From Platanthera guangdongensis (Eukaryota; Streptophyta; Magnoliopsida; Asparagales; Orchidaceae): a stretch of 64,000 nt of DNA. Below the pieces are notes generated by a model that did no database searches, was not told the origin of the DNA, and was given only the letters and a program-made list of their open reading frames with translations. Positions 16,201 through 55,593 of this stretch are shown piece after piece (the stretch's first letter is position 1; each line of letters begins with the position of its first letter). The DNA lies in NCBI GenBank assembly GCA_039583875.1, contig CM077155.1, positions 10,643,046 to 10,707,045 of the forward strand. The letters run 5' to 3'. The position numbers and the translations under genes were made by a program.

Positions 16201-16611
16201 AATTTGTGAAGTGGAAGTGGGTGATGGGCAGGCCGGGCGCACTGTGCGGCCTGAGCGGTCTGAGTCCGCAGCCTGGGCGGACGGTGGGTTGCGGCCTGGG
16301 TGTTGGCTGTCTTGTTGGCTTGGTTATTGAGGGCGGACTGTGCGGCCTGAGCGGTCTGAGTCCGCGGCTTGGGCGGACTGCTGGTGTGGCCTAGTGACCT
16401 TGGCTGTCTTGGTGGCTTGTTTGTTGAAGAGAAGCCTGTGCGGCCTAGTATGCAGCCTGAGCGGTCTGATGAGCGGCTTGGTTTGCCTATGGCCAGAGAA
16501 GTCGAGCTTCTGGCGATGCGGACTGAGCAGACTACGGTTTGCGGGTTGTAAGCAGTGCCTTGTTCAGCGGCTTTGTGTGTTGCAAGCTTTTGTCAACCGG
16601 CGATTTATGTG
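16195..16611 (+). repeat. B LTR2, left part
   Basis: TGTTGAAATTTGTG onward, aligning with 10158-10579. Cut by element A; continues at 41444. Confidence 0.93.
16607..16611 (+). other. Probable decayed target duplication of element A (left)
   Basis: ATGTG here against GGGTG at 41444-41448. The other B LTRs read GGGTG at this point, so the left copy has probably mutated at two bases. Confidence 0.6.
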
Positions 16612-18523
16612 TGTTGGATCCCTAGTTGATTTGGGCTAGGTTCACTGACTTAGGATGTGACACATCATGTATAGACAGGGTCAAGTTTGTGTCCTAGAGT
16701 CTAGGCCAAGTCCTTAGGTTCAACTTCAGATGGACCAACTATCAACAAGACCATCAGAGACTCCAGACTTAGAGGTTTTCAAGACTAAGTAAAGTGAGTT
16801 CGACGTTCGTCGAACTCAGCTCGAGGAAAGGTGTTCTGCGCTCGACGATCGTGAGACAATTCTTAGTGCTGAGCTCGACGATCCTTGTTCTCTGTTCGAC
16901 GAATATTGAGGTTCTTCATCAAGCCAAATTCAGGACAACTTCAGAATTTTTCTAAGTCCAGCTTCAAGCTTTGGTCGACGAATTAGACTCTAAGCTCAAC
17001 GAACTTGGACCTCAAGTTCTCAGATTCTCAGGTCGACAAATACAGTACTCTACTCGACGAATTCTGAACTCAGAGTATTTGTGTCGACACTTAGGGCATA
17101 TATCGACACCAGACAATTTATGTCGACACCAGAAGATTTGTGTCGACACTAGGATTTCAGTCAACACCAATTTATGTCGACACCAGAAGATTTGAGTCGA
17201 CACCAAGATCAATTAGTCGACACCAGCTTATGTCGACACTGAATATCAGCAGATGCAGAATATTTGGCTTAAGTCCACAATCTATCTCAGCTCGACAAAT
17301 GGAGATTATCTGTTCGACGAATGAAGATTGTCTGTTCGATGAATGAAAATTGTTTGTTCGACGAATGAAGATTGTCTGGTCGACGAACTCTCTCAAGCTC
17401 AGCTCGACGAACTCAAGCTCAGCTCGACGAACTCAAACTCAGCTCGACGAATTGCGTTCTTCGTTCGACGAATCCAGACTAGGTCTTCTTCAGGTTTCCC
17501 GTCCCGTTTCTTGGCGATGATTCCGGAGTTATTAATACCAGATCTTCTCGGAATGTTACCGTTAGAATGTGTATTGACTATGGACGATTACATGCCATTT
17601 TTCCATGGGACAGTTGGGGAAATCATTGATTGTCGCTTCCTTCCAAGGCCGTCTGCAATTACTGCTCAACATTCGAATTTTGAATGTTCTTAGTCAGTCA
17701 AAAAAAGATAGACAAGAAAAGAAAGTATTAACACAGTCAGTCATACAGTCACACAAAAACAACAAGCAATACAGTGATACAGACAGACAATCAGACAGAC
17801 ACTCAGATTGCACAGAAGAACAACCTCTCAAAAATCAAAAGTTCTACTGCGATCAGCCTAACCAGAGAACATCTTCAAGAAGAAGAAGAAGAAGAACCAA
17901 TCACTATCAAGGGTCTTCTTCTGACAATTCTCAGGACAACTTCAAAGGACAGCAAGTTTCAATCTGTCAAAGAAGCTCCTGAAGCATCTCTGGTCCAGGC
18001 ACTCTAGGTCTTTGAAGACCTATCACCCTAAAGCAGTGCTCTAGTTTTCCTGATCTCAGGGGGAGCAAGCTGCCTACATCAATCCACAGTCTTCTCAGTT
18101 GCTTTGAGAAAGAGAAGACACCATCACTTTATTTCCAATTCCTGTACAAGGTTTTAATTCCCTTCAAAATTATTCTGGTTGCAAGTCTCCTTCTAAAAGA
18201 CTTGAGGTTTTAGTTTTTGAGCACCTGAACAAAAGCTCATTGGTGTCAGGCACCTGATCAAAAACCTGAGTGGATTCCTGCCAGGGTGGTAGAAGAGTGG
18301 ATGTACCCAGGTTGGAGAACCACTATAAAATTTCTTGTGTCGTCTGGTTGCCCTTTTCTTTTGTTTTGGCTGTGATCTGTGATTGCTTAGTTTGCTGTGC
18401 TTAGTTTATTTTATTTGCTAACCTGTTCACCTAGGCTTACAACAAAAGTTATAAAAAGTTTGTAGAGAGCACAATACTCTATTCACCCCCTATAGAGTAT
18501 TTCAGATCTAACCTGCACTTTCA
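16612..18523 (+). repeat. 5' LTR of element A
   Basis: 1912 bp. U3 has TCGTCGA/TCGACGA palindromes (16797-16900, 16970-17070, 17285-17475) and a GTCGACACCAG block (17086-17245). Confidence 0.93.
17086..17245. repeat. GTCGACACCAG repeats in A LTR
   Basis: About eight units at roughly 20-bp spacing centred on the palindrome TGTCGACA, with variable T/A-rich spacers such as AATTTA or AAGATT. The 3' LTR keeps the block at 39998-40157. Confidence 0.85.
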
Positions 18524-18541
18524 ATTGGTATCGGAGGGAGG
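18524..18541 (+). promoter_or_regulatory. Primer-binding site of element A
   Basis: ATTGGTATCGGAGGGAGG right after the LTR; Met-tRNA-type with one change. Confidence 0.85.
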
Positions 18542-18654
18542 TTGGTTAAAATACCACACCTTATTGGTTGTACATGCTAACACCTGAATCACAAAGATCC
18601 CTCTTGTTAGATCTGTTTGTTTGTTTTTGTTATTAGATTTATTTCTTCACAGAA

Positions 18655-20777
18655 ATGACCCAAAACAAAGATTAAGCAAGCATCAGACCTCCAGTGTTCA
18701 ATCTTAACAAGTTTGCCATCTGGAAGGCAAGAATAAGGTTATACATGAACTCTATTGATGAGGATATCTTTTTTGTTATCTTGACAGGTGTACATCCAGC
18801 ACCTGCAGCTTCTACCAGCACTTCTACCAACATGACTGCAGTGCCCCCTCCAGAAAACAATGATGCATACAAGAAAGCCAAAATGGCTGATGCAAAGGCA
18901 ATGAATATCTTGGCTGAGACAATGTCAGATGACATATTTCATAAGGTGGTTGAGTGCACCTCAGCCAAGGCCATTTGGGATTCCCTCAACCAAATGGTAG
19001 CTAGCTCAGCATATGAGAGAAAAGACAGGAGATCCAATCTCATAACCTTGTATGAGAACCTCAAAAAGGATGAGACAAAATCAGTGGCTGAGATGTACAA
19101 CAGGCTGAGTTCAATCATCAATGAGCTCAAAACCCTAGATAAGGACATCACCTTGACAGAGGTGAATGACAAGATATTGATGTGCTTCCCTACTTCTTGG
19201 GATTCCAGAATCTGGCCAATCAAAGAAGCTAGAAGCCTCAATGAGATATCAACTGAGTCTCTACTAGGCAAATTAAAATCCTATGAGCAGCTGATCAAAT
19301 CAAGAGAAGCAGCAGAACAGATGGCTACAACTCCAGTGAGAAAGGATCACAGCATAGCCTTCAAAGCATCTGAGGAAAATGAGTCATCAACTTCCAATGA
19401 AGAACTCATGAGACTCTTTGCCAAAAGGTTCTATAAGATGGCTAGAAAGGATTTCAGGAGGAAATCATCCAGACAGGATGATAAGCCCAAGTATGACAAG
19501 ACACCAACCAAGGAGGTTGTGTGCTTTGGGTGCAGAAAATCTGGACATTACATCTCAGAATGTCCAGAAAACCAGAAGAAGGACAAGAGCAAAGAAAGAG
19601 ACTCAAGAAGAAAACACAGCAGTAGACCCTCTTCCAGCAAGTATAAAAAGAAAGAAAAGGACTTTGTTGCTGAGACATGGAGTGACACTGAAGAAGAAAC
19701 ATCTTCCTCCAGTTCAAGTGAAGAAGAGGAAGAAGCAAGATCCAAGGAGGTCTTCCTAATGACAATTGATGCCTCCAGGAGCTGTTCTGGATCAGAAGAA
19801 GAATTAGAAGAAGAAGCAGCCTCATACTCAGAGGCAGATCAGGTTCTTTCTAATTTTGATTTTAATTCTGATTCATTCAAAATTGATTTCAAAGCCATGT
19901 GTTTAGATTTAATTAGCTCAGAAAAGAAAATAAAAAATCTTAGAGAAAGACTAGGAAGTCTTGAATCTGTCAACTCAAAAAACATTAAACTATAAGATCA
20001 ACTAACCTTAGCAAATGAACAGATAATTAAATTAAAATCTGAATTATGTGAGGCCAAACAACTTTGCAATCTCTTAATGGGAGAAGTCTCAAGCTGATGG
20101 ACATTACAAGCACAGTGAATGTCATATTAAATGGTAAGCTGGGCTTGGGTGCTTCATCAAATTTACCCCCCATAATTAAGAAAAATATACTTACAACCCC
20201 CATCAAGTTCATTTATGCCAAAGGAAAAGAAAAGTTAATAAACAAACTATTGTTTGTAAACAATCCCAAACCTATAGACAAGAGAAACAGAAATCAGAAA
20301 ACAGCAAATAAAAATAAAGTTCAGCAGCATTCGTTGAACTCAGATCGATGAAATGTGGCCAGTTCGTCGAACCCAGATCGACGAACGCTGAACGCAAACT
20401 TCAGTTATAACTATTTGTCTAACTGCGATCGAAGAACTGTGTATGGTTCGTCGAGCAGACGTCGACGAACTTGGGGCATAGAAAATGACTACTGTCTTTC
20501 TCTGAGCAGAGATCGACGATCTCATCCCTATTTGTCAAACTCTGGTCGACGAACTTACAACAATTCGTCGAACCCAGAAAGACCAAACCTAAATCATTTC
20601 TCTAACAGAAATTTTAAACCAACTAATAATACATTTAATCCAGTAGCTGATTGGGTAATCCCACCTAGGAGATATCACCCCTTAGGTTATAAATCTTAAC
20701 CTGCTTTATCAGTTATTTCCAACTTTACTTTTCAACAAAATAAAGAACCCAAGGTAACCTGGGTCAAGAACAATTGA
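18655..20777 (+). pseudogene. Element A gag, broken
   Basis: The ATG (18655) is followed by a stop at codon 7, where E has Tyr. The frame then runs from 18694: capsid-like region with KFAIWKARIRLYMNS, DDIFHKVVECTSAKAIWDSL and LNEISTESLLGKLKSYEQL, then zinc knuckle CFGCRKSGHYISEC (about 19522-19563), a Lys/Arg-rich and a Ser/Glu-rich acidic stretch, and a coiled-coil-like segment. A stop at 19993 and a frameshift near 20075 precede LMDITSTVN and the basic Asp-Arg-Arg repeats (20340-20580). It then ends IPPRRYHPLGYKS and PKVTWVKNN. Only one zinc knuckle is present. Gag would package element RNA. Confidence 0.88.
20326..20575 (+). repeat. TCGTCGA palindrome block inside A gag
   Basis: Units such as TTCGTCGAACCCAGATCGAC followed by GAAC recur with 30-60-nt spacing and encode SNPDRR, SNCDRR and SSRRRR motifs. 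It is the same DNA motif as in the A LTR and the A pol-ORF3 spacer. Confidence 0.85.
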
Positions 20778-20779
20778 AT

Positions 20780-20796
20780 TTTGTTTTTCTTTGTAG
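20780..20796 (+). promoter_or_regulatory. Splice-acceptor-like site before A pol
   Basis: TTTTGTTTTTCTTTGTAG followed by GT. A donor-like AAG/GTAACC lies 43 nt upstream at 20754. Counterparts exist in C, D and E. Confidence 0.45.
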
Positions 20797-23700
20797 GTAC
20801 GGGTGAAGAGCTGTCCAAGGGTGAGTCAAACTTGGTACTTGGATAGTGGTTGCTCCAAGCATATGACAGACAACAAGGCAAATTTATCCAATTACATGTC
20901 CAAGCTAGGACCAAAGGTGATTTTTGGAGATTCAAAAAGTGGCCAGTCAGAAGGATATGGAGCAGTGAAAATTGGAGCAGTTACTTTCAGGAAAGTAACA
21001 TATGTAAGAGGACTCAAACATAACTTTATATCCATAAGTCAATTATGTGATGAAGGTTATCAGGTACACTTTAACTCTACCTCTTACTCTATTATTAATA
21101 ATGAAAACCAAACTGTTTTAATTGGACTTAGACAAGACAATATATATCTAGTAGATTTTATTTCTGCCAAAACTGATGTTTGTTTACTTAATATCACTAG
21201 TAATCAAAATGAGTTATGGCATAAAATATTAGGCCATGTAAACCTTAAGAATATATCTAGGTTATCTAAAGACAACCTTGTTAGAGGTTTACCTTCTGAC
21301 CCCTACAAGAAGGAAAGCCTATGCAGGGCTTGTCAATTAGGCAAGCAAACCAAAACTAGCTTTAAATCCATTAATAAAAGTGATTCACCTAGGATATTGT
21401 ATTTGCTTCATGTGAATCTATTTGGACCCATTGCAGTACAAAACCTAGGAGGGAAGTCTTATACTTTAGTGATTGTTGATGACTTCTCTAGATTCAGTTG
21501 GGTAGCCTTTCTGAGAGCTAAGTCAGATACATTCAAGGTTCCTACAGATTTTCTCAGGACCATACAGATTGAGTTCTCTACTCATGTTGCATTGATCAGA
21601 AGTGATCATGACACAGAGTTTGAGTCTCTTCTTATGCATGAGTTCTATGAGAAGGAAGGTATCAGGCAGTGCTTCTCAGCTCCTAGAACTGCCCAACAAA
21701 ATGGGGTTCTGAAAGGAAAAATAGGACACTCATTGAATCTACAGGTACATTATTAGCAGATGCTTACATGCCTCTATCTTTTTGGGCAGAAGCTGTAAAT
21801 ACTGCTAATTATGTCCTGAATAGAAGTCTTATACATAAGCTGAAAAATAAGACCCCCTATGAATTACTTAAAGGGAAGAAACCTAAAATCACATACTTTA
21901 AAATTTTTGGTTGCATCTGTTACATTCACACAAATAATAAGAGATACATTAGAAAGTTTGAGGCTAAGGCTGGAGAATGGATTTTTCTAGGATATTCCCA
22001 AGTAAGCAAGGCCTATAGGGTTTTTAATAAATCCACCCTTAAAATTGAAGAATCTGTTCATGTATCTTTTGATGAAGCTAACATGTCTTATAAGGAGAAA
22101 GAGATTTCTACCAATAGCTTTTTGCAGGTTCCACAACTGTGTGAGTCTATGGATGGACTAAACCTTACCCAAGAGGTATCAACCCATCCCACTCCACAGG
22201 TTGCTGTAGATAGTGAAGAAGAAATTCAAGTGGAAGTGGCTGAACTTCCCTCAACAGCTAGTACCATTCCCCAAGAGGAATTAATTACAGAAGCTGTTGC
22301 TCAACCAACTCCACCAACTAATCTTGTCACACTTAGAGATCACCCCAGATCTCAAGTGATTGGAGACATTTCAGCAGGTGTACAGACAAGGCATCAACTC
22401 AATCAAGACTTGATGCATGCATGTTTTCTCTCTCAAATTGAACCTCTCACCATCCATGAAGCAGAGCAAGATCCCCACTGCATCATTGCAATGCAAGAGG
22501 AACTAAATCAGTTTGAGAGATGTAGAGTTTGGGATTTAGTTCCAAGATCCCATAACTACCCAGTTATTGGAACTAAATGGGTCTACAGGAACAAGTTGGA
22601 TGGTCAAAACAACATTGTGAGAAACAAGGCTAGGCTTGTTGCTCAAGGCTACAGGCAAGAGGAAGGAATTGATTATGACCAAACCTTTGCCCCCTGTTGC
22701 AAGGTTAGAGGCCATAAGAATATTCCTTGCCTATGCAGCTCACAAGAGATTCAAAGTCTACCAAATGGATGTCAAGAGTACATTTCTGAATGGAGTGCTT
22801 CAAGAAGAAGTTTATGTAGAACAACCTCCATGTTTTATCTCTCCAACTCAACCCTCTTTTGTATTTAAATTGCATAAAGCTCTCTATGGTTTAAAGCAAG
22901 CTCCAAGAGCTTGGTATGAGACCTTAGCAAGCTTTCTTTTAGAGCATAAATTTACAAGAGGAAACATAGATAAAACTCTTTTCACTAGACATCATAAGAA
23001 CCAAATTTTGTTAGCACAAATATATGTGGATGACATCATTTTTGGTTCTACTGATCCCAAATTGTGCAAGAGGTTTGCTGACCTCATGCATTCTAAATTT
23101 GAGATGAGTAGCATGGGTGAGCTTTCCTACTTCCTTGGTCTCCAAGTGAAGCAGCTCCCTGATGGTATCTTCCTCTCCCAAGCTAAGTATGCTAAAGAGC
23201 TTATCAAGAAATTTGGGATGGGTGATGCTTCAGGAATGAAAACACCTATGGCTACAAATGCTGTTGTGGATTCTGATGCAGCAGGGAAACCTGTAGTTCA
23301 GAGACATTATAGGGCAATTGTTGGATCCCCATTATACCTAACAGCTAGCAGACCTGATATAATGTTTGTCACATGCCTTTGTGCTAGGTTCCAAGTGAAC
23401 CCTAAAGAATCTCACCTTATTTTCCTAAAAAAAATTTTGAGATATATAAAGAGTTGTTCTAATCTAGGACTTTGGTATCCTGCAGACTCAGAATTTGAGT
23501 TAACTGGATACTCAGATGCTGACTATGCTGGATGTAGAGTGGACAGGAAGAGAACCTCTGGAACTTGCCAGTTCCTGGGTATGAGACTTGTCTCCTGATT
23601 TTGTTAAAAGCAGACATCTGTGTCTACATCAACCGCAGAAGCAGAATACATGGCTGCTGGCAGTTGCGGTTCACAAATGCTATAGATACAAAACCAACTC

Positions 23701-23976
23701 CTAGACTGTGGTGTCAACTTAAATAATTTAACATTATTTTGTGATAATACTAGTATTATTGTTATAGCACAGAATCCAGTTCATCATTCTAGGACTAAAC
23801 ATATTGAAATAAGACATCATTTCATTAGAGATAATGTAGACAAAAAGAAAATTAACTTAATCCATATTCCTACTGATCTACAGAGAGCAGACATTTTCAC
23901 CAAGCCCTTGGATGAGAAAACTCATCTGTTCTTTATAAATCAACTGGGAATGATCAATGGAGAAGAGTTAAATTAG
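20797..23976 (+). pseudogene. Element A pol (PR-INT-RT-RH), frameshifted
   Basis: Protease WYLDSGCSKHMTDNK (about 20835), pre-integrase LWHKILGHVNLKNISR (about 21214), integrase core from HVNLFGP (21409), where the first catalytic Asp is Asn (21415-21417), through RSDHDTEF. A 1-nt loss near 21712 shifts the frame in the GVAERK motif, restored in another frame from 21768. RT starts KWVYRNKLDG (about 22579), has an extra C near 22692, and continues with [27 protein letters not shown] and [10 protein letters not shown] (about 23020). RNase H has [19 protein letters not shown] and HIEIRHHFIRDN and ends GEELN, TAG at 23974. Stops near 23596 and 23606 add further damage. Confidence 0.92.
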
Positions 23977-23987
23977 TTTCTGTCTGC

Positions 23988-24235
23988 ATTCGATGAATAT
24001 TCCAAAGTTCGTCGAACGAAGTTCGACGAATTAGGGAAAGTTTGAGAGATTCTCGTCGAACGGAGATCGACGAATTCTCTGTGTGGAAACAATTTTCGTC
24101 GACCGAAGATCGACGAACTTTGCTTCAGAAGACGTTTCTTCGAACGGAGTTCGACGAACTGTTTTCGATTCTTCTGGATGAGATCGATGAATTATTTGTC
24201 TATAATTTATTTCTTCGAGCTCAGTTCGAAGAATT
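23988..24235 (+). repeat. TCGTCGA palindrome block in A pol-ORF3 spacer
   Basis: Includes a perfect unit TTCGTCGAAC, 3-nt loop, GTTCGACGAA (24008-24030), then four to five further units with slightly different arms. It fills most of the 400-nt gap between pol and ORF3. Confidence 0.88.
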
Positions 24236-24351
24236 GCTTCTTTTTCATGGAACGGAGATTGTCGATTCATATTCTGAAAATCTTATATCTAGGTTTTCTT
24301 CGACCTCCGTCCCGCGCTTTCAGTTCCTGTGCTCTTGATCATCATTTTTCT

Positions 24352-24368
24352 CGGTGTTTTTCTTGCAG
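24352..24368 (+). promoter_or_regulatory. Splice-acceptor-like site before A ORF3
   Basis: GTGTTTTTCTTGCAG followed by GT, 7 nt before the ORF3 ATG. The same arrangement occurs in D and E. Confidence 0.5.
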
Positions 24369-24375
24369 GTCATCA

Positions 24376-24948
24376 ATGGCGATTCCCGCAGGAGCTTTGG
24401 CGGCAATGAAATTTGATAATGGTTTTGATATGGACTTCGATTCTTTCCAACATTCTGACCACACCTTTCTTTATATCTTGGAACTGCTAGAAGAACTTAA
24501 TCTAAAGGACTTTATGACCCGAAGGATTAAACTGCACTCAACCGAAATCAGAGAATGGGTATATACATTGTCTGTTACTGAGGAAGATGTGATGACATGC
24601 AATATCGGGAGTACTGCTGTTCCGTTATCTCCCGCAATTCTTTCTGAGATTTTTGGATTAGTAAATGGAGAAGATGACATGGAAATGGACTCTAAAGAAT
24701 TTGGTGACATGATGAAGTTAATGGGTTTTTCAGGAAGCAAACCTAATAAGTTGTTGAAGAAACAACTGTCCGCCGCCTACCAGTTCCTGGCGGACATTGT
24801 CGGAAAAGTGCTGATGGCCAAGCACTCTGCACATGACTACATCACCCGCTACCAATTCCTGGTTATGTGGCCGTGTTGAACAAGAGCCATGTCAACTGGG
24901 GAAGAATTTTCTTTGAGTTGATAAAGAAAAAGAACAGCAAGAAGGAAG
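24376..24948 (+). pseudogene. Element A ORF3, N-terminal part (interrupted by E)
   Basis: The start MAIPAGALAAMKFDNGFDMD is nearly identical to D. The core LADIVGKVLMAKHSAHDYIT with YQFLVM (about 24790-24866) resembles the 'putative plant transposon protein' domain family. A small indel near 24866 shifts the frame to a stop at 24877. The other frame continues LNKSHVNWGRIFFELIKKK to the E insertion and rejoins at 37084 as VYFGRILG. No signal peptide or membrane helix. Position between pol and PPT is that of the Sirevirus third ORF. Confidence 0.82.
24944..24948 (+). other. Target-site duplication GGAAG (left) of element E
   Basis: Exact match to 37079-37083; lies in the Lys-Lys-Glu codons of A ORF3. 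Confidence 0.92.
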
Positions 24949-26452
24949 TGTTGGAACACCATATTACTAATTTGCGTCAGGATCACTATGTCTCTAGGAA
25001 CAAATGCTTGACCTCCTGTATAGCTCAATAGGTCAATTAGAATTGAGTCTAAGGGTTAGAAGTCTAGATTTGGAAGCTGCCCTGAAGACCAGGATTTTCT
25101 ATTTTGGAGACTAAGTCATATCGTCGAGCTCAGCACGACGATTCGTCGAACTCCGATCGACGATCGTCTAGCTTAACTTCATCAGATCGTCGAACTCCAT
25201 TCGACGATCGCTGAGCTCAACTTCACCATATCGTCGAACTCCATTCGACGATCGGTGAGCTCAGTTCGACGATCTTGACTCAGCTTTGGATCTTTATCTC
25301 TGAGCTCAGTTCGACGATCTTTGAGCTCAGATCGACGATATTTTGCTGCTGTATATTTCCAGATCGCTGAGCTCAGTTCGACGATAGCAGAGCTCAGTTC
25401 AACGATTTCAGATAACTTCAAGGATGTTTCTATATTCAAATTCAAATCAGTTAAGACATTATTCTGCAATTAATTCAGAGATTTCCTAGCCATTTTCATT
25501 CATTTCTGGACCAAGTTTCAAGGAACATTTCTGTGGACTTTCCTCCAGAAGAGATTTTGCAATTAAGGATGCAATTAATGCAGATCAACGGCTATTCTTC
25601 TCAGAGAATGTTTTTGTTCAGTACCAGAGAATAAAAGAGAGAATTCTTTTTTGAATTACCAAGAGAGATACACAGACACACAGACAGACATCAATAATCT
25701 TCAACAAAATCTTCTGTCTCAAAGAATTCTCAAGAACACTCATCCAAGGAGATCAATCTTTTCAGAAATCTTCAGATCTCTTTAGTTTCAAAGTGTTCAA
25801 GGCCAACATATTTCAAGACTCCAGACATTCAACATTTCAGCTATTGCTGAAATCATCTATTGCTGGAGTTCAATCTTTGAAGGCCTATCACCCTCAGCAA
25901 AGCTTTTCTTCCTAAAGATCTCAAGGATTCAGGGGGATCTTTGACATCAACAATTCACATAGTCTTCTCAGTTGTTTGAGAAAGAGAAGACTTCCATCAC
26001 TCTCTCACCCCCTCTCTGTAAAGGGTTTCTCAAACTCCCTTCAAAAGTTTGAGCTTGGTTTTTGAGCACCTTGTCAAAAGCTCATTGGTGGCAAGACACC
26101 TGATCAAAAAATCTGATTTGGTTTTTGAGCACCTTATCAAAAGCTCATTGGTGCCCAGGACACCTGATCAACTCATCCTGCGTGGATTCCTACCTAGGGT
26201 GGTAGAAGAGTGGATGTACCCAAGTTTAGGGGAACCACTATATTTCCTTGTGTCCTATGGTTTTGCTTGTTTTTATTTTTTTTTCTGGCCTTGATTTTTC
26301 TGTGATTAGCTTTTCATTAACTTAGTTTTGTGATTAGATTTATTACTGCTTCCCTGCTCACTCTTATTACAACAATTGTTGTAAAAAGTTTCAAAGCACC
26401 ATATACTCTATTCACCCCCCTCTAGAGTATATCAGATCTAGCTGCACTTTCA
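24949..26452 (+). repeat. 5' LTR of element E
   Basis: Contains about ten palindromic units (25119-25412) of two kinds: TCGTCGAACTCCATTCGACG and GAGCTCAGTTCGACGATC. Confidence 0.95.
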
Positions 26453-26470
26453 ATTGGTATCAAAGCGAGG
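26453..26470 (+). promoter_or_regulatory. Primer-binding site of element E
   Basis: ATTGGTATCAAAGCGAGG next to the LTR. Confidence 0.88.
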
Positions 26471-26584
26471 TTGGTTAAACATACCATACCTGATTGGTTG
26501 TACAGACTAACACCTGAACCCAAAGATCCCAAGTTAGATCTGTTTTCTTTTGTACTTTATCATTAGATTTTGTTTTCACAAATC

Positions 26585-28660
26585 ATGGCCCAAAACAAAG
26601 ATTATTCTAGCACCAGACCTCTAGTGTGCAATCTATCCAAGTTTGCACTTTGGAAAGCAAGGATCAGACTATACATGAATTCTATTGACGAAGATATTTT
26701 TAACTCTGTTTTGACAGTGTGTCCAAGACCCCCAGAGAATACAAGTACAAATGCTGTTCCACCTCCATCAGGAACATATGCTGATATCAAGAGATGGAAG
26801 GTAGCTGATGCCAAGGCTATGAACATCTTGGCCCAGACAATGTCTGACGACATATTTCAAAAAGTGGCTGAATGCAATTCAGCTAAGGAAATTTGGGAGA
26901 AACTTTCTGAAATAGTCTCAGGCTCAGCTGATGAGAGAAAGGATAGGAGATCCCATCTCATCTCTCAATATGAGAATTTCAAAAAGGGAGAAACTGAGTC
27001 AGTGGGAGACATGTACAACAGGCTAAGTCTAATTGTCAGTGAACTCAGAACATTGGATAAAGAGATCTCACTAACTGAACTCAATGACAAGATTCTAATG
27101 TGCTTCCCTAGCACTTGGGATTCAAGAATCTGGCCAATTAAGGATGCCAGAAGTCTGAATGAGATCACTACTGAAGCTTTATTGGGTAAGCTCAAATCTT
27201 ATGAGCTACTCATCAAAAATAGAGAAGAAGAACAGAAGGCTGCCTCACCAGCCACAAGAAAAGAGAAGACCATAGCCTTCAAGGCAATTGAAGATCTGCC
27301 TGAAGACAAAGCCACAGGCAATGATGAACTACTCAGTCTGTTGGCCAAAAGATTTTACAAAATGGCCAGAAAGGACTTCAGAAGGAGATCATACAAGGAG
27401 CAGGATAAGCCAAGGTATGATAAGTCCATTAATAATAATAAAGACATTATTTGCTTTGGTTGCAGGAAACCAGGGCACATAGTTCCTGATTGTCCAGAAA
27501 ACAAAAACAAGGACAGAAGGGACAGGAAAGAAAGAAGAAAGGAGAGAGACTCCAAGAGGAATGACAATGACAAACCCTCATCAAGCAAAAACAAACATAC
27601 AAGAAAGGGGTTTGTTGCTGAATCCTGGAGTGAGACTGAAGAATAGTCAGAAGCATCATCCAGCTCCAGTGATGATGAAGATGATGCAGAAGAAAAAGAG
27701 TTCTGCATGATGGCAATCAATGCCTCACAGCACAATTCAGAAGAAGAAGAGTCAGAGTCAGATTCAGAGACTCAACCTGAAGAAGGTCAGGTAATCAGTT
27801 CTTTTGATTTTAATTCAGAGGATTTTAAATCTGAATTTAAAGCATTGTGTTTGGACCTGCTAAAGTCTGAGAAAGAGATCATCTCTCTCAGAAATTATTT
27901 ATCTGAACACAATACTTTAAAGTCAGAAAACCTCAAACTCTCTCAGGAGTTGGAGTGCTCTAAGGAACAGATAGCTTCACTGAAAAGTGAGCTATCTGAG
28001 GCCAAGAAGCTTGAAGAATCCCTTAATGGGAGAAGCATCAAGCTGATGGACATCACAAGCACAGTGAACTCCAGATTCAATAGTACACTGGGCTTGGGTG
28101 CTTCATCCAGCCAACCCATAGTTCTAACAACTCCAATCAAATTCATCTCTGACAAAGGAAAGGGAGTTGTAGAGGTTTCTAGGAAAAATTCTGATCTGCC
28201 CCAGAAAACTAAGTCCCAGCAGAAATTGTCGAATGGAGCTCGACGATCGCCAAACGGAGATCGACGATCGCCGAACGCAGATCGACGATCTCAGGCAAAA
28301 TCATCGAACGCAGATCGACGATCTCAGCCAAAGTCGTTGAACGCAGGTCGACGATCTCAAGTACCTGATCTCACCCATAGTCGACCGTCGAACGGAGCTC
28401 GACGATCTTACCCAAGATCGTCGAACGCAGCTCCAAGATCGTCGAACAGAGGTCAGAGCTCTGGAAAATTTTTCAAGGGCAAATCAAAAGTGAATCCTAA
28501 GGGTCCTTCATCCCAAATCTTCAACCCTTATACTGAATGGATTATACCTCCAAGGAGATATCATCCTGAAGGATATAAGAGTCAACCTGGGATGTCCTTT
28601 ATTTCAGAATTTAAAGGCTATCAACCTAGGCCCAAGGTAAACTGGGTCAAAAACAAATGA
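26585..28660 (+). pseudogene. Element E gag, one internal stop
   Basis: A 692-codon frame starting MAQNKDYSSTRP with a single TAG at 27644-27646. Capsid-like region: KFALWKARIRLYMNSIDEDI, DDIFQKVAECNSAKEIWEKL, LGKLKSYELL (about 26636-27215). Zinc knuckle CFGCRKPGHIVPDC (about 27451-27492), Lys/Arg-rich then acidic segments, a coiled-coil-like segment (about 27850-28020), LMDITSTVN, then six to eight basic repeats of the type SNADRRSQ (28226-28452). The end is IPPRRYHPEGYKS and PKVNWVKNK. The basic repeats occupy the place where C has its second zinc knuckle. They are encoded by the same palindrome that fills the LTR. Confidence 0.92.
28226..28452 (+). repeat. TCGTCGA palindrome block coding for Asp-Arg-Arg repeats in E gag
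   Basis: Units such as TCGAACGCAGATCGACGATC at 20-36-nt spacing, all in one reading frame, giving N-G-D-R-R-S, N-A-D-R-R-S, N-A-G-R-R-S and N-G-A-R-R-S. Spacing in multiples of three is kept. Confidence 0.9.
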
Positions 28661-28661
28661 A

Positions 28662-31600
28662 TTGTTTTATGTGCAGGTGAAGACCTATCCAACACCTAAC
28701 CAACAATGGTACTTGGATAGTGGGTGCTCTAAGTACATGACAGGGAATAAGGACAACCTCACATCCTTCAGAGCCAAGCTTGGACCTAAAGTTATCTTTG
28801 GTGATTCAAACTTTGGACAGACTAAAGGATATGGTGCAGTCAAGATTGGATCAGTAACTTTCAAGAATGTAGCTTATGTGGAAGGACTGAAGCACAACCT
28901 AATTAGCATTAGTCAGCTGTGTGATGAAGGCTACCAGGTGACCTTCAGCAAAGCCTTATGCAAAATCAAGTCAGAGGACAACACAACTGTGTTGACAGGT
29001 AAAAGAAAATGTAACATCTATCTAGTAGATTTTCTTTCAACTGATGTAGATATCTGCTTGTTCAATTCTGTCTGTAGACCAAATATCTTATGGCATAAGA
29101 GATTAGGACACCTAAACCTTAGAACTATTGCTAGGCTATCCAAGGACAACCTTGTTAGAGGACTACCTTCTGGCCCCTACAAGAAGGAAGGACTCTGCAG
29201 GGCTTGTCAATTAGGCACGCAAACTAAAAATAGCTTTAAGTCACTTAATAAGAGTGATTCACCTAGGATATTGTACCTGTTACACATGGATATTTTTGGA
29301 CCCATCACAGTACAAAGCCTAGGAGGGAAATCTTACACTTTAGTAGTTGTAGATGACTTCTCTAGATTCACTTGGGTGTTCTTTCTAAGGAAGAAGTCTG
29401 ATAACTTTAAGTGTCTGACAGAGTTTCTCAAATGTATACAGATTGAGTTCAATACTCACATTGTCCTGATCAGAAGTGATCATGGGACAGAGTTTGATTC
29501 TCTTCTTATGCAAGAGTTCTGTCAGAGTGAAGAGATCAGACATACTTTCTCAGCTCCTAGAACTCCTCAACAAAATGGGGTAGCTGAAAGGAAAAATAGA
29601 ACCCTTATTGAATCTGCCACTACATTGTTGTCAGATGCTCATCTACCTCTATCCTTTTGGGCAGAGGCAGTGAACACCTCCAACTATGTGCTGAATAGAA
29701 GTCTGATACATAAACTAAAGGGAAAGACTCCCTATGAATTACTCAAAGGGAAGAAACCTAAAGTTGATTATTTTAGAGTCTTTGGTTGTATTTGCTACAT
29801 TCATAACAATGACAAGAAATATTTAGCAAAATTTCAAGCCAAAGCTGATGAAGGAGTGTTTCTGGGATACTCCATGATCAGCAAGGCTTATAGGGTTTAT
29901 AATAAATCATCTTTAAAAATTGAGGAATCTGTTCACATTTCATTTGATGAATCTAACATGTCTTTCAAGGAGAAGATCTCTTCTACCATAGAACCTTTGC
30001 AGGAACATTCTCTAGTTGAAGACTTGAACAAGTTACAGGTTACTCAAGAGGATGAAAGCAGTGGAGATGAAGAAAATGCTCAACATATTGAAGAACAACT
30101 TGAAGAGCCAGTTGTTGTACCACAAGAGGAAACAACAACACAGGTTGGTGAACAATCAACACCCCATGTTGATTTAGTAACATCAAGAGACCATCCAATT
30201 TCCCAAATAATTGAAGAAATCTCACCTGGTGTGCAAACTAGAAATCAGGTCAACCAAAACCTGTTGTACACTTGCTTCCTATCTCAAATTGAACCTCAGT
30301 CCATTCAAGATGCAGAGGAAGATCCACACTAGATCATTGCAATGCAAGAGGAGTTGCATCAATTTGAGAGAAACAAAGTATGAGAACTAGTGCCAAAGCC
30401 TAAGGATCATTCCATTGTTGGAACAAAGTGAGTATTCAGAAAAAATTGGATGATCAAGGAGTAATTATAAGGAACAAGGCAAGGCTAGTTGCTCAGGGAT
30501 ACTCTCAAGAAGAAGGAATAGACTACGACCAGACCTTTGCACCAGTTGCAAGATTAGAAGCCATCAGAATATTCTTAGCTTATGCAGCACATAAAGGCTT
30601 CAAGGTATATCAGATGGATGTCAAAAGTGCATTTCTAAATGGAGACATCAAAGAGAAAGTTTATGTCAGACAACCTCCAGGTTTTATCTCTCCAACTTAT
30701 CCTAATTATGTTTTTAGATTGAATAAAGCATTATATGGTCTCAAGCAAGCTCCTAGAGCATGGTATGAGACCCTAGCATGCTTTCTCTTGGAAAATGATT
30801 TTATAAGGGGTAGAGTAGACCAAACTCTTTTCATTAGAACCCATAAGTCTCATACCCTACTAGTACAGATTTATGTAGACGATATTATTTTTGGTTCTAC
30901 TGACTCCAAATTGTGCAGAAGGTTTTCTAACCTAATGCATTCTAAATTTGAGATGAGTAGCATGGGTGAGCTATCCTTCTTCCTAGGATTGCAAGTCAAG
31001 CAACATGCTGAAGGCATCTTTATTTCTCAAACCAAATATGCAAATGAATTGGTTAAAAATTTTGGTATGTCTGAAGCATCTTGTATGAAAACACCCATGC
31101 CTACTAATGCTGTATTGGATGCTGATGAACATGGGAAACCTGTTGATCAGACAACATATAGAGCAATGATTGGCTCTTTACTGTATCTTACAGCTAGTAG
31201 ACCAGATATAATGTTTGCTACATGTATATGTGCTAGGTTCCAAGTAAGCCCTAGAGAGTCACACCTAACACTAGTAAAGAGGATTCTCAGGTATGTTAAA
31301 AGTTGTCCAAATCTAGGTCTCTGGTATCCAAAAGATTCAGCATTTGATTTAACTGGATTCTCTGATGCTGACTATGCTGGATGCAGAATTGACAGGAAAA
31401 GCACCAGTGGAACTTGTCAGTTCCTTGGTGACAGACTTGTCTCTTGGTTTTGTAAGAAACAAACATCTGTGTCAACTTCAACTGCTGAAGCTGAATATAT
31501 GGCTGCAGGCAGTTTTGTTCACAAATCTTGTGGATTCAAAACCAACTCCTAGACTATGGCTACAACTTAGAGAAGTCTAAAATCTTTTGTGATAACACCA

Positions 31601-31824
31601 GTGCTATTTCTATAGCTCAAAATCCAGTCCTCCATAGTAGGACAAAACACATAGAGATTAGGCATCATTTCTTAAGGGATAATGTTGAAAAGAATAAAAT
31701 TGAACTACAATATATCCCAACTGATTTACAAAGGGGAGATATTTTCACCAAGCCATTGGATGAAAAGAAACACACCTTCTTCCTAAATCAGTTAGGAATG
31801 TTAGATGGAGGAAGTCTTAAATAA
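28662..31824 (+). pseudogene. Element E pol (PR-INT-RT-RH)
   Basis: Protease WYLDSGCSKYMTGN (about 28710), pre-integrase LWHKRLGHLNLRTIARLSKD (about 29088), zinc-ligand CRACQLG, integrase core with MDIFGP (about 29286), RSDHGTEF (about 29473) and GVAERKNRTL (about 29578), so the D,D,E set is intact. Stops at 30330, 30381 and 30429, and a shortened A-run near 30440, disrupt the integrase-RT junction. RT runs [14 protein letters not shown] to [10 protein letters not shown] (about 30872). RNase H ([19 protein letters not shown]) is cut by a frameshift near 31520 and resumes with FCDNTSAIS and HIEIRHHFLRDN to GGSLK and TAA (31822). Pol is in the +1 frame relative to gag. Confidence 0.93.
28664..28676 (+). 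promoter_or_regulatory. Splice-acceptor-like site before E pol
   Basis: GTTTTATGTGCAG followed by GTGAAG. A donor-like AAG/GTAAAC lies 40 nt upstream (28637). Removing these 40 nt would bypass the gag stop and join gag to pol in frame, but 40 nt is short for a plant intron. Confidence 0.45.
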
Positions 31825-31916
31825 AATCCAAGATTTTGGAAGCTTAAAAATTGACCAAGACTAGGCAAACATCCTGATTTTTCTTAGTGTCTAGAATTTT
31901 TCTGATCTCTGAACTG

Positions 31917-32180
31917 CGCTCGACGATTTGCCCCAAGATCGTTGAACGGAGATCGACGATTTCCAAAATCGTCGACCTGAGTTCAGCGTTTCTCAGATAG
32001 TATGAACTATCTCTTCCGGTCAACGATCGTCGAACGGCGCTCGACGATTTTGTTCTTTGAACGATCGTCGAACAGAGCTCGACGCTCTCCAATATCGTCG
32101 AACGGAGATCGACGATGTTGAAGACTCTTCAGATTCCTTTAGAAGCCTCGATCGTCGAACTGAGTTCAACGATCTTTCCA
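31917..32180 (+). repeat. TCGTCGA palindrome block in E pol-ORF3 spacer
   Basis: Six to seven units such as ATCGTCGAACGGAGATCGAC followed by GAT, at about 30-50-nt spacing, filling the gap between pol and ORF3. Confidence 0.88.
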
Positions 32181-32300
32181 ATTCTGCGTCGAACCCTAAT
32201 ATAAAATTCATTTTTTCGCCGTCGTTCTCCTTTGCGCTTTCGATTTCTCTGCAAGAACTTTCTTTCCCTCCAAACAGTTCTGCACTTGGTCGTTTTGTTT

Positions 32301-32315
32301 GTTGAATTTTTGCAG
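32301..32315 (+). promoter_or_regulatory. Splice-acceptor-like site before E ORF3
   Basis: GTTGAATTTTTGCAG followed by GT, 6 nt before the ORF3 ATG. Confidence 0.5.
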
Positions 32316-32321
32316 GTACCC

Positions 32322-35300
32322 ATGGCCGTGTCTGTTGTCGTTCTAGCCGCCATGAAGTTTGATGCTGGTTTCGATATTGACATGGAATCCTTCAACACAA
32401 CTGACCAGGCTTTTCAGGATTTCTTGGGTTTATTCAAAGACCAGAACCTGACTGTCATTATGACCACAAGGATCAAGCTGGCATCTGATGAGATAAAGGA
32501 ATGGGTCTACACTGCCCACAATCAAGATAACAACACCATTGTTGGGTCTATATCTGGAACTCAGGTACCCTTAACCCCAACAATTTTAACAGAAGTTTTT
32601 GAGTTGAGAAATGGTGAAGATACTGCTGACCTGTCTGGAGAAGAGTATTCTGACCTGCTTGCCAGAATGGGTCATTCAGAGGGCAACCCTAGCAAGCTCT
32701 TCAAAAGGAACCTTTCTGTGGAATACAGATTCATGGCAGATGTTGTTGGGAAAGTACTACTGGCTAAGCACTCTGCCCATGATACAATCTCAAGGTATCA
32801 GCTCTGCCTCATGGGAGCCCTTATAGATAAGAAAAATCTGAATTGGGGAGAAGTCTTCTTTGACCTTATCAAGAAGAAAATCAACAAAAGTTTTGTCAAC
32901 TTTGGAAGGATCATTGGGGTGTTTCTGCAGCACAGGTGCCCTGCTTTGCTGGTCTCCTCTGGAATCCATATCAATGCTTCCAAGAGACTGTCTTGTGCCC
33001 TCTTTTGAAAGTGGGACAGACAAATCAGCAAGCCCAGCAGGCCCTCCTCCAGCACTCCTTCAGGCACAAGGACTCTAAGAGTCACTACCTCACAGGTCTC
33101 TGCCCCTGCAGATGACCTGCCTGCTGTTGTTGCCTCTCCTCCTCCTCCTCCAATTCCATCTCTTCCCATACCATCCACCATTCCAGCTCCATCCACCATC
33201 ATCATTTCCAGCCCCTCTCCAACATCCACACCATCTCCAGTACCTATTCTTCCAACACCAGAAGAACAATTCCTTCCATTATTCTCCTACCCTCCACCAG
33301 ATGTCAGTTCATCACCCTCTCATCCATTCTTCACCCTTATTGATGATTCCTTTATGGATGATTTACCATCCTCTCCTCCTGAGCTACCCTCATCCTCCAC
33401 TTCCTATTAAGACCTTCTACAACAAATCATTGACCAACCCACATTCACCTCATCTATCTTCATCCCACTCTCCTCCATATCCACCTTCCCAACATCTCAG
33501 CCATCTCTTCCCCCATTCTCCAGCTCTCCACCACCCTCACCATCAGCTGCTCCTCTATCTTCTACCTCTGCTCCAGTCACCCTTGAGCAAGTAGACCTTC
33601 CAGCCCTTGCTGACAGGTTGTATGAGTTGCTAGCCCCCAGGCTCTCTCTTCTGTTGGAGACCTCCTTGGCTCCACTACACATGTCAGTGGCAGCCCTCTC
33701 TGCCAGGATCTCTTCTATATTCCCTCAGGCAGCCCCTACAACAGTGTGCCTTGATCCAGCCCTGTCTGAATCTAGGCAGGGGGAGATGCCCCATGAAGTG
33801 AGTCTTCCTGCTGCTGCTGTTGCTGCTTCTATTTCTATGAGCCTATCTGCTGCTGCTGCTGTTATTGCTGCTTCTTCAGCTTCTGCTCTTGCTGCTGTTG
33901 CTGTGCCTCAAGCACAAAGTCCTCCTGCTGCAGTCCTTGTAATAGACCTCAGGTCTTTGCTATCAAGCTTTGATCAGTTTTATTTCAGCTGTCTGCCAGA
34001 ACCAGTTGCTGTCCAGCCTCCAGAGGATCTATCCAAGGCACTTGTGCCATTTTCTTGTTGTGACCCAAGCATCATCACCTCCTTTGTCAATTCAGTGTTT
34101 GCTGCTGCTTCTTCTGAAGAAAGCATTATTGTTGCTTCTGATATTGTTGCCCCTACTGCTGCTGAACTTTCTGATACTGCTGCTGAAGTTTTTGTCATTA
34201 CTGTTGAACCAATTTCCAAGGAAATTCTTATGTCAGAGGCACCTGAGTTTGAGCCTTCTGTAGTTTCTGATGATTTCTCTGCTGTTATTTCTGCTGGTGT
34301 TAGTGAGACTGTTGCTGCTGCTGTCACTTCTCCAGAGCCTATAGTTGCTGCTGTTGTTGTTACTGCTTCTACTCTATCTGCTGCTGTTATTGCTTCAACA
34401 CCTGCTGTTGCACCATCTGTTGCCTCATCTGCTTCTGTACAGCTCAAGAAGGATCTAATGAAGAAAATTGATGCTCTTTATGATGACCAGAGTTCTGAAA
34501 GTGATGAATTTAGAACAGACTCTGATGACTCTTCTGCTACCATTGCCAGGAATAGGAAGGCAAGGAGCAAAGCTATGAAGAGAGTACCTCCAGCCAAAGT
34601 CAAAGACAATAATGATATTCCATACTACATTCTACATGACTGCCCTATTACTGAGCACTGGATGCAGTACTCCAAGAACCAACTGAAAGCAATGAAAAAG
34701 AAGAGAAAATATGAAAAGGGTTCCTCTCAATTCCAACACTCTCATCCTCCTCCACCACCTCCTCCTGATGCAGGTGCAGGTGCAAGCTCTGCAGCTCAAC
34801 CCCCAGCCAGAAGTCAGGCCCCCTATCAGCCTCATGCTAGATCTTATAATAGGGGAAGCCAATCCAGTGGATCTCAATCTAGGAGAGGAGGATACAGAGG
34901 AAATCAAAGAGATCTCCAAGTCTACTCCAAAGGGTACTCAAGGCAACACCCTTATTCCAGGGGAGGACAAATTTCTTCTGATACAACATCTGGTCCTTTT
35001 CCCTATAAGCTGAAAGAAACTGTGTCTTCCAGGCCTCCTCAAGACAATCCCTCTAACAGATATGAGCCACCTGTACCTTTTGAGGATCCTGAGAACAATC
35101 TAGCTGCTTGGGCTGTAAGATTAAAAGAACTAGCTGCACTGGATCAGATCAAAAAGGCTAGAGAGTAAGGAAAAGATTCATCTAACATCTCAACAATGTC
35201 TGAACAGAGACAGAAAGAGCTAGAAAGATATGCATCAAGCAAGTTCTTTGATTCTGACAGGTATATGGAATTACATCCTGAAGCTGTAGTTCCCAGGCCT

Positions 35301-35573: not shown

Positions 35574-37078
35574 TGTTGGAACACCCTATTACTAATTTGG
35601 GTCAGGATCACTATGTCTCTAGGAACAAATGCTTGACCTCCTGTATAGCTCAATATGTCAATTAGAATTGAGTCTAAGGGTTAGAAGTCTAGGTTTGGAA
35701 GCTGCCCTGAAGACCAGGATTTTTTGTTTTGGAGACTAAGTCATATCGTCGAGCTCAGCACGACGATTTGTCGAACTCCGATCGACGATCGTCTAGCTCA
35801 ACTTCATCAGATCGTCGAACTCCATTCGACTATCGCTGAGCTCAACTTCACCATATCGTCGAACTCCATTCGACGATCGGTGAGCTCAGTTCGACGATCT
35901 TGACTCAGCTTTGGATCTTTATCTCTGAGCTCAGTTCGACGATCTTTGAGCTCAGATCGACGATATTTTGCTGTTGTATATTTCCAGATCGCTGAGCTCA
36001 GTTCGACGATAACAGAGCTCAGTTCGACGATTTCAGATAACTTCAAGGATGTTTCTAGATTCAAATTCAAATCAGTTAAGACATTATTCTGCAATTAATT
36101 CAGAGATTTCCTAGCCGTTTTCATTCATTTCTGGACCAAGTTTCAAGGAACATTTCTGTGGACTTTCCTCCAGAAGAGATTTTGCAATTAAGGATGCAAT
36201 TAATGCAGACCAACGACTATTCTTCTCAGAGAATGTTTTTGTTCAGTACCAGAGAATAAAAGAGAGAATTCCTTTTTGAATTACCAAGAGAGATACACAG
36301 ACAAACAGACAGACATCAATAATCTTCAACAAAATCTTCTGTCTCAAAGAATTCTCAAGAACACTCATCCAAGGAGATCAATCTTTTCAAAAATCTTCAG
36401 ATCTCTTTAGTTTCAAAGTGTTCAAGGCCAACATACTTCAAGACTCCAGACATTCAACATTTCAGCTATTACTGAAATCATCTATTGCTGGAGTTCAATC
36501 TTTGAAGGCCTATCACCCTCAGCAAAGCTTTTCTTCCTGAAGATCTTAAGGATTCAGGAGGAGCTTTGACATCAACAATCCACATAGTCTTCTCATTTGT
36601 TTGAGAAAGAGAAGACTTACATCACTCTCTCACCCCCTCTCTGTAAAGGATTTCTCAAACTCCCTACAAAAGTTTGAGCTTGGTTTTTGAGCACCTTGTC
36701 AAAAGCTCATTGGTGGCAAGACACCTGATCAAAAAAATCTGATTTGGTTTTTGAGCACCTTATCAAAAGCTCATTGGTGCCCAGGACACCTGATCAACTC
36801 ATCCTGTAGTGGATTTCTACCTAGGGTGGTAGAAGAGTGGATGTACCCAAGTTTAGGGGAACCACTATATTTCCTTGTGTCCACTGGTTTTGCTTGTTTT
36901 TATTTTTGTTTCTGGCCTTGATTTTTCTGTGATTAGCTTTTCATTAACTTAGTTCTGTGATTAGATTTATTACTGTTTCCCTGCTCACTCTTATTACAAC
37001 AATTGTTGTAAAAAGTTTCAAAGCACCATATACTCTATTCACCCCCTCTATAGTATATCAGATCTAGCTGCACTTTCA
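35574..37078 (+). repeat. 3' LTR of element E
   Basis: 1505 bp, near-identical to the 5' LTR, including the palindrome block at 35746-36040. Confidence 0.95.
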
Positions 37079-39523: not shown

Positions 39524-41443
39524 TGTTGGATCCCTAGTTGATTTGGGCTAGGTTCACTGACTTAGGATATGACCCATCATGTATAGCCAGGGTCAAGTTT
39601 GTGTCCTAGAGTTTAGGCCAAGTCCTTAGGTTCAACTTCAGATGGACCAGCTATCAATAAGACCATCAGAGACTCCAGACTTAGAAGTTTTCAAGACTAA
39701 GTAAAGTGAGTTCGACGTTCGTCGAACTCAGCTCGACGAAAGGTGTTCTGCGCTCGACGATCGTGAGACAATTCTTAGTGCTGAGCTCGACGATCCTTGT
39801 TCTCTGTTCGACGAATGTTGAGGTTCTTCATCAAGCCAAATTCAGGACAACTTCAGAATTTTTCTAAGTCCAACTTCAAGCTTTGGTTGACGAATTAGAC
39901 TCTGAGCTCGACGAACTTGGACCTCAAGTTCTCAGCTTCTCAAGTCGACGAATACAGTACTCTACTCGACGAATTCTGAACTCAGAGTATTTGTGTCGAC
40001 ACTTCGGGCATGTGTTGACACCAGACAATTTATGTCGACACCAGAAGATTTGTGTCGACACCAAGATTTCAGTCAACACTAATTTATGTCGACACCAGAA
40101 GATTTGAGTCGACACCAAGATCAATCAATCGACACCAGCTTATGTCGACACTGAATATCAGCATATGCAGAATATTTGGCTAAGTCCACAATCTATCTCA
40201 GCTCGACGAATGAAGATTGTATGTTCGACGAATGAAGATTGTCTGTTCGATGAATGAAGATTGCCTATTCGATGAATGAAGATTGTCTGGTCGACGAACT
40301 CTCTCAAGCTCAGCTTGACGAACTCAAGCTCAGCTCGACGAACTCAAACTCAGCTCGACGAATTGCGTTCTTCGTTCGACGAATCCAGACTAGGTCTTCT
40401 TCAGGTTTCCCGTCCCGTTTCTTGGCGATGATTCCGGAGTTATTAATGCCAGATCTTCTCGGAATGTTACCGTTAGAACGCGCATTGACTATGGACGATT
40501 ACATGTCGTTTTTCCACGGGATAGTTGGGGAAATCATTGATTGTCGCTTCCTTCCAAGGCCGACTGCAATTACTGCTCAACATTCGAATTTTGAATGTTC
40601 TCAGTCAGTCAAAAAGAGATAGACAAGAAAAGAAAGTATTAACACAGTCAGTCATACAGTCACACAAAAACAACAAGCAATACAGTGATACAGACAGACA
40701 ATCAGAGAGACACTCAGATTGCACAGAAGAACAACCTCTCAGAAATCAAAAGTTCTCCTGCAATCAGCCTAACCAGAGAACATATTCAAGAAGAAGAAGA
40801 AGAAGAACAACCAATCACTATCAAGAGTCTTCTTCTGACAATTCTCAGGACAACTTCAAAGGACTACAAATTTCAATCTGTCAAAGAAGCTCCTGAAGCA
40901 TCTCTGGTCCAGGCACTCTAGGTCTTTGAAGACCTATCACCCTGAAGCAGTGCTCCAGTTTTCCTGATCTTAGGGGGAGCAAGCTGCCGACATCAATCCA
41001 CAGTCTTCTCAGTTGCTTTGAGAAAGAGAAGACACCATCACTTTATTTCCAATTCCTGTACAGGGTTTTAATTCCCTTCAAAATTATTCTGGTTGCAAGT
41101 CTCCTTCTAAAAGACTTGAGGTTTTGGTTTTTGAGCACCTGAACAAAAGCTCATTGGTGTCAGGCACCTGATCAAAAACCTAAGTGGATTCCTACCAGAG
41201 TGGTAGAAGAGTGGATGTACCTAGGTTGGGGAACCACTATAAAATTTCTTGTGTCGTCTGGTTGCCCTTTTCTTTTATTTTGGCTGTGATCTCTGATTGC
41301 TTAGTTTGCTGTGCTTAGTTTATTTTATTTGCTAACTTGTTCACCTAGGGTTGCAACAAAAGTTGTAAAACGTTTGTAGAGAGCACAATACTCTATTCAC
41401 CCCCCCCCCCTCTAGAGTATTTCAGATCTAACCTGCACTTTCA
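39524..41443 (+). repeat. 3' LTR of element A
   Basis: 1920 bp, matching 16612-18523. A C-tract of ten or more near 41399-41410 is longer than the run of five in the 5' LTR. Confidence 0.93.
39708..40385. repeat. TCGTCGA and GTCGACA palindrome block in A 3' LTR
   Basis: Counterpart of 16797-17475. It includes GAGTTCGACG/CGTCGAACTC around TT (39709-39730) and about eight TGTCGACA units (39998-40157). Confidence 0.85.
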
Positions 41444-42863: not shown

Positions 42864-42878
42864 TGGTATCAGAGCCAG
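42864..42878 (+). promoter_or_regulatory. Primer-binding site, B unit 2
   Basis: TGGTATCAGAGCCAG after the middle LTR, showing that this LTR is also the 5' LTR of unit 2. Confidence 0.9.
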
Positions 42879-55206: not shown

Positions 55207-55214
55207 TAGTTCGC

Positions 55215-55583: not shown

Positions 55584-55593
55584 ACACAGAAAT

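Follow-up and report, generated by a model that had tools for sequence, protein, structure and literature searches.

Three long terminal repeat (LTR) retrotransposons, here called A, D and E, lie in a stretch of 64,000 nucleotides from the orchid Platanthera guangdongensis (contig CM077155.1, positions 10,643,046 to 10,707,045; "the window" below is this whole stretch), and we found that each of them carries arrays of the heptamer TCGTCGA at the same three places: in the LTR, at the end of gag and between pol and a downstream open reading frame, ORF3. Judged from sequence, the odds are about even (a probability of roughly 0.5) that these arrays are a form of the repeated motif (RM) of Sirevirus elements and serve as double-stranded DNA sites for one nuclear protein of host or element origin, including an intragenic site in gag. 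The LTR arrays would serve the genomic RNA promoter, and those before ORF3 would form part of an internal ORF3 promoter. In gag the motif is kept within the reading frame, so that Gag has a string of SSNx(D/A)RR units, and here this protein would find an intragenic site. The sequence itself shows the arrays, the gag frame, the distribution of CpG and of codons and the flanking bases; we infer that the target would be DNA and not RNA, that a single factor would be shared, that the arrays would have promoter or enhancer activity and that the gag site would play the role just described.

Arrays of the motif and their positions

Elements A and E are on the plus strand, with LTRs at 16612-18523 and 39524-41443 (A) and at 24949-26452 and 35574-37078 (E); E sits within ORF3 of A and is flanked on both sides by the repeat GGAAG. 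Element D is on the minus strand, with LTRs at about 62675-61040 and 52191-50541, the ends being possibly one base off. The two LTRs of an element are 95.6% (A), 97.3% (E) and 92.7% (D) identical, aligned stretches of gag and pol show pairwise identities of about 73-80% among the three elements, and a Pfam scan of pieces of A and E returned copia gag, integrase and reverse transcriptase domains.

On both strands of the window together TCGTCGA has 107 matches, against a mean of 1.40 and a largest count of 5 in 100 dinucleotide shuffles. Of these, 105 fall within 12 blocks (4179 bp), namely nine blocks first described in an earlier note on this DNA and three matching stretches in the 3' LTRs; two lone sites, at 46354 and 50389, lie outside the blocks. 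The location of the arrays in the LTR, at the end of gag and before ORF3 of A, D and E, as given in that note, is confirmed by these counts. The blocks are:

16797-17475, plus strand: A, 5' LTR array, 13 exact heptamers, mostly half-sites
20326-20575, plus strand: A, array in the gag reading frame, 7 exact heptamers, 19/82 codons with CG
23988-24235, plus strand: A, array between pol and ORF3, 7 exact heptamers
39709-40387, plus strand: A, 3' LTR array copy, 14 exact heptamers
25119-25412, plus strand: E, 5' LTR array, 11 exact heptamers, 10 with partner arm
28226-28452, plus strand: E, array in the gag reading frame, 8 exact heptamers, 25/75 codons with CG
31917-32180, plus strand: E, array between pol and ORF3, 9 exact heptamers
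35744-36040, plus strand: E, 3' LTR array copy, 10 exact heptamers
62130-62490, minus strand: D, 5' LTR array, 5 exact heptamers
58983-59228, minus strand: D, array in the gag reading frame, 8 exact heptamers, 20/82 codons with CG
55318-55583, minus strand: D, array between pol and ORF3, 7 exact heptamers
51640-52007, minus strand: D, 3' LTR array copy, 6 exact heptamers

The full array unit is TCGTCGA-N7-TCGACGA, 21 bp in length. When scored as present at up to two mismatches (background rate 5.6%), the partner arm accompanies 38 of the 46 sites of the gag and pre-ORF3 blocks and, in the 5' LTRs, 10/11 sites of E and 5/5 of D, but only 1/13 of A (2/14 in the 3' LTR of A). The LTR array of A is made up mostly of single half-sites, not palindromes. 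The notion of one palindrome at all places is consequently not exact for the LTR of A. The claim that an array precedes each reading frame is loose for gag, which starts about 1.2 kb downstream of the LTR block. The middle block, which had been placed just before pol, is not a spacer: in each of the three elements it belongs to the gag frame and ends roughly 0.2 kb before the pol frame.

The gag array and its codons

In the gag arrays, the distance from one exact site to the next in like orientation is a multiple of 3 in 17 of 17 cases, compared with 8/23 in the 5' LTRs and 6/17 before ORF3; the binomial p for gag is 8e-9, though tandem copies are not independent. Read in frame, the gag array encodes SSNx(D/A)RR repeats. 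The gag frame of A and that of D contain stops.

We found that CG-containing codons account for 19/82 (A), 25/75 (E) and 20/82 (D) codons of the gag arrays and for 0/1356, 1/1530 and 2/614 outside them (p 3e-25, 2e-34 and 5e-18, respectively), the outside counts being taken from open gag and pol pieces (two ORFs in the case of D), with ORF3 excluded. Serine is encoded by TCG in 7/17, 10/16 and 10/18 cases inside the gag arrays of A, E and D and in 0/138, 0/151 and 0/47 cases outside; for arginine, CGN is used in 11/14, 13/16 and 10/11 cases inside and in 0/70, 0/78 and 1/31 outside. Because CG-containing codons are confined almost wholly to it, the gag array looks kept for the nucleic acid and not for the encoded protein alone.

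It could be argued that in gag only the peptide matters, as a basic SSNx(D/A)RR repeat, and that its likeness to the other arrays at the DNA level was inherited from a common origin. Protein searches returned 2, 3 and 10 proteins, eleven different ones in all (P0001 to P0011), which were compared as proteins; the nearest named Gag, from the orchid Platanthera zijinensis, is 42% identical to the piece from E. Units of the SSNx(D/A)RR type are found in several of them: two or more in P0001 and in P0004, three in P0003, and one with the start of another in P0002. The codon choice makes the peptide-only explanation very unlikely, as TCT, TCA or AGA would encode identical residues, and the arrays use TCG for 27/51 serines and CGN for 34/41 arginines, against 0/336 and 1/179 outside. 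The array region is lacking from P0005, and no SSNx(D/A)RR array was seen in P0006-P0011, among which P0008 has one lone SNHVRR and P0009 is a partial protein; four of these six are dicot by name or listing (Reevesia, Hibiscus twice, Cephalotus). The peptide IRRTEIDE of P0001 may represent the DNA motif translated in another frame. As for related DNA, a search of IMG/VR with the reverse transcriptase of E gave two stretches that matched a pattern, neither of them confirmed, and a two-unit motif was found neither in IMG/VR nor in prokaryote contigs.

At the gag/pol boundary there is also a stretch of 40-43 nt with GT...AG borders (20753-20796 in A, 28635-28675 in E), the removal of which would bring gag and pol into a single frame; the counterpart in D departs from this at its first base. 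Most plant introns exceed 40-43 nt. A stem motif has been published for the Sirevirus gag/pol boundary (PMC5009743, in the section cited).

CpG content of the elements

The CpG observed/expected ratio is 0.01-0.05 in the 5' untranslated region (UTR)-gag and pol spans of all three elements, which are:

18524-20325 and 20576-23987, plus strand: A, CpG-poor 5'UTR-gag and pol spans
26453-28225 and 28453-31916, plus strand: E, CpG-poor 5'UTR-gag and pol spans
59229-61039 and 55584-58982, minus strand: D, CpG-poor 5'UTR-gag and pol spans

In the nine arrays the ratio is 1.38-2.53. It amounts to 0.02 in E and 0.18 in D for ORF3 with the linker, to 0.56 in 559 bp of ORF3 and 0.04 in the linker of A, to 0.06-0.28 in the LTRs below the arrays and to 0.26-0.64 in the remaining DNA of the window. 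Neither CAG nor CTG is depleted in these gag and pol spans (1.24-2.18). The arrays hold 137/197 of the CpG of A, 122/145 of that of E and 100/148 of that of D.

Masking of all near-motif 7-mers (up to two mismatches) lowers the ratio to 0.13-0.76 in the LTR and gag arrays and to 0.51-1.08 before ORF3, with 1-7 CpG left in each, compared with 0.82-0.86 in random sequence under the same mask; when exact motifs only are masked, the values are 0.74-1.25 and 1.35-1.76, respectively. From these results, CpG is centred on the motif in the LTR and gag arrays and spread more widely before ORF3. Between the two LTRs of an element, CpG positions of the arrays differ in 24/227 cases and other array positions in 42/1106 (odds ratio 3.0). 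Array CpG thus mutates faster after insertion and yet persists, which points to selection.

We weighed whether the arrays could be tandem repeats of no benefit to the element, which replication slippage has spread and which are recognised chiefly by the host. Such an origin would agree with the array spacers, which differ between E and A/D, and with maize data, where palindromic LTR regions of Sireviruses are hotspots of small RNAs (PMC5311732, PMC10760457, in the sections cited). It is nevertheless quite unlikely, given that the motif retains CpG against a ratio of 0.01-0.05 in the gag and pol bodies, that the arrays occupy the same three places in elements sharing about 73-80% identity and that the gag frame is kept. 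In sunflower SIRE elements CG methylation is strongly reduced and CHG methylation high between the LTRs (PMC12844716, as described in the part cited), a pattern which, by analogy, would fit the CpG-poor body.

A possible shared factor, and DNA or RNA as its target

The base flanking the arm is A at the sites of E (10/11 in the 5' LTR, 8/8 in gag and 9/9 before ORF3) and T at most sites of A and D taken together (14/18, 13/15 and 12/14), the difference between E and A+D giving Fisher p values of 5e-4, 9e-5 and 7e-5 for the three places. A per-position permutation on 89 aligned full and partial units (58 tests, uncorrected) attributes both flanking bases to the element (p 0.0005, the smallest possible) and centre positions 9, 10 and 13 to the place (p 0.0015, 0.0005 and 0.0015). 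The flank varies with the element and the centre with the place, which speaks against recent copying from array to array and for a shared reader. The proposal that the arrays are cis-acting sites for a common factor is in this way supported indirectly, by CpG restricted to the arrays, by the CG-containing codons of gag and by the element-specific flanking base.

Several points weigh against double-stranded DNA sites read by one protein. The comparison covers three elements as DNA in one 64-kb window, tandem copies are not independent, and the flanking-base pattern amounts to few events. Place also has an effect at arm position 1 (p 0.0025) and at four other positions (0.017-0.043), and element at two centre positions (p 0.012 and 0.037). 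Array CpG diverges less than CpG elsewhere in the LTRs (24/227 vs 13/58, p 0.027), so that some protection of array CpG from mutation, instead of selection, is possible. Finally, the blocks of E fold as RNA beyond shuffles (z -3.3, -4.7 and -6.4), as does the gag array of A (z -5.1).

The main rival, which we consider possible but doubtful, builds on this folding: the arrays would act as RNA hairpins of the full-length transcript, located in gag, before ORF3 and in U3 at its 3' end, and Gag or a host protein would bind them for packaging, for localisation or to control translation. The units are inverted repeats, and the full-length RNA would hold all three places. Inverted repeats necessarily fold well, which applies to the blocks of E and to the gag block of A. 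Folding was computed only for these four blocks and for 17290-17475 in the LTR of A; the latter stretch does not fold (z -0.59) and retains the half-site, in an array where one of the 13 heptamers has a partner. A half-site kept there without palindrome or fold leans towards DNA over RNA, although it does not settle the question. Among 235 arm mismatches C>T changes (41) exceed G>A changes (28), a weak lean to G-U tolerance that CpG decay predicts equally.

Surroundings of ORF3

The candidate signals in front of ORF3 are:

24366-24378, plus strand: A, candidate 3' splice site CAG at 24366-24368, ORF3 ATG at 24376
32200-32324, plus strand: E, TATAAAA at 32200, candidate 3' splice site CAG at 32313-32315, ORF3 ATG at 32322
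55204-55217, minus strand: D, candidate 3' splice site CAG at 55217-55215, ORF3 ATG at 55206-55204

Expression of ORF3 by an internal promoter and by splicing are both possible. Where E has TATAAAA, a TATATC-like sequence is seen by eye in A and D; the TATA pattern is not rare, with 5, 2 and 7 internal matches in A, E and D. The CpG richness of the pre-ORF3 array extends into ORF3, with an approximate reach of 50 bp (E), 500 bp (A) and 870 bp (D). The internal promoters suggested in the earlier note are plausible before ORF3, in view of this CpG-rich stretch and of TATAAAA at 32200 in E, and for the Sirevirus env-like gene an internal promoter has been favoured (Bousios 2010, PMC2829016, in the section cited). 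For pol the suggestion was abandoned: between the gag array and pol the TATA pattern matches in A only (20688), within codons of the peptide GYK kept in relatives, and in neither D nor E.

A scan for T-rich (C/T)AGG acceptors over 24.4 kb (A only before E) gave three matches per element, one of which lies 6-8 nt upstream of the ORF3 ATG in all three. As regards a role of the arrays in splicing, also proposed in the earlier note, this is a good candidate 3' splice site in each element, but it lies outside the arrays. In the Arabidopsis copia element EVD splicing parts gag from pol expression through a short GAG RNA (PMC8892269, in the section cited), whereas A, D and E have candidate splice sites only and the arrays are not in them. 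Pieces of ORF3 match PF20167 below its cut-off, and a structure model built from three sequences (mean pLDDT 33.1) was unusable.

Relation to Sireviruses and other known systems

By their sequence, A, D and E appear to be copia elements of the Sirevirus lineage, although not every hallmark is present. The terminal polypurine tract (PPT), AGGGGGAG, followed by AT and the 3' LTR, is exact in E and has one mismatch each in A (AGGGAGAG, then AT) and D (ATGGGGAG, then AC). The junction of 5' LTR and primer binding site (PBS), CA/ATTGG with TATCAGAGC in Sireviruses, has CA/ATTGG in all three, and the PBS ninemer differs from TATCAGAGC at one position in E and D and at two in A. C runs near the LTR end, corresponding to the C-rich integrase signal, were seen by eye in the 5' LTRs of A, D and E. 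A copia gag domain was found in A and E, with a weak CCHC motif in A, the relative P0004 is a protein of 664 aa with CCHC, and ORF3 lies downstream of pol in A, D and E, in agreement with a large CCHC-containing gag and an env-like ORF. Identical PPTs in the linker, about four in Sireviruses, number two exact octamers in E and none in A or D, with one-mismatch copies (E 1, A 2, D 2; A counted only past the E insertion). The arrays agree with Sirevirus RMs in position, in the LTR and before the env-like gene, but differ in core: 12 of 13 published RMs contain a CGG-CCG core, Tnd-1 being a published exception (PMC2829016, in the part cited), and this core is not in TCGTCGA-N7-TCGACGA.

Published RM boxes occur in many palindromic copies in the upper LTR and upstream of the env-like gene, where they form CpG islands, so that arrays at these two places and their CpG islands are known already (PMC2829016). 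In the cited sections of that work they are placed in the LTR, in the linker and, for two elements, in few copies where ENV begins, and none in gag. The gag array seems unreported: we found no RM-type array within gag in the open-licence literature searched, nor did we meet there the frame and codon evidence or the flanking-base pattern. The gag array would extend the Sirevirus repeated motif, otherwise non-coding, to protein-coding sequence, and its CG-containing codons, nearly absent from the rest of the element, are a sharp sign that the nucleic acid as such is preserved. Should a single factor read the arrays at all three places, the A/D/E family offers a route to what such motifs bind, a question left open in the cited parts of the literature.

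The VANC/VANDAL system of Arabidopsis likewise relies on a single short motif that is tandemly repeated at several sites of an element, and a one-base variant of it has accumulated in a single subfamily (PMC5735166, PMC10398659, in the sections cited), as the flanking base here separates E from A/D at 3/3 places, in three elements only. Unlike the present arrays, it belongs to a DNA transposon with non-coding targets, and its element protein has been shown to bind the motif and reduce methylation (PMC5735166, PMC10398659). By analogy, ORF3 or Gag could read the element's own motif at the three places, including the one within its gag gene, and counter host silencing, with motif and protein changing together, which would explain the different flanking base at all three arrays of E. 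A retrotransposon system of this kind is unlikely. Beyond the sub-threshold PF20167 match, the domain listing for the ORF3 pieces contains neither DUF1985 nor DUF287.

Other features of the window

The LTRs of A contain a second tandem array of GTGTCGACAC-like units (17099-17240 and 40013-40151), which is absent from the tandem-repeat rows of D and E. On either side of element A, long direct copies (10158-16599 and 41444-48906) are about 92-94% identical. A related stretch without D, at 2882-4812, aligns with 49706-50541 and 62677-63746 and runs uninterrupted over the place of the D insertion.

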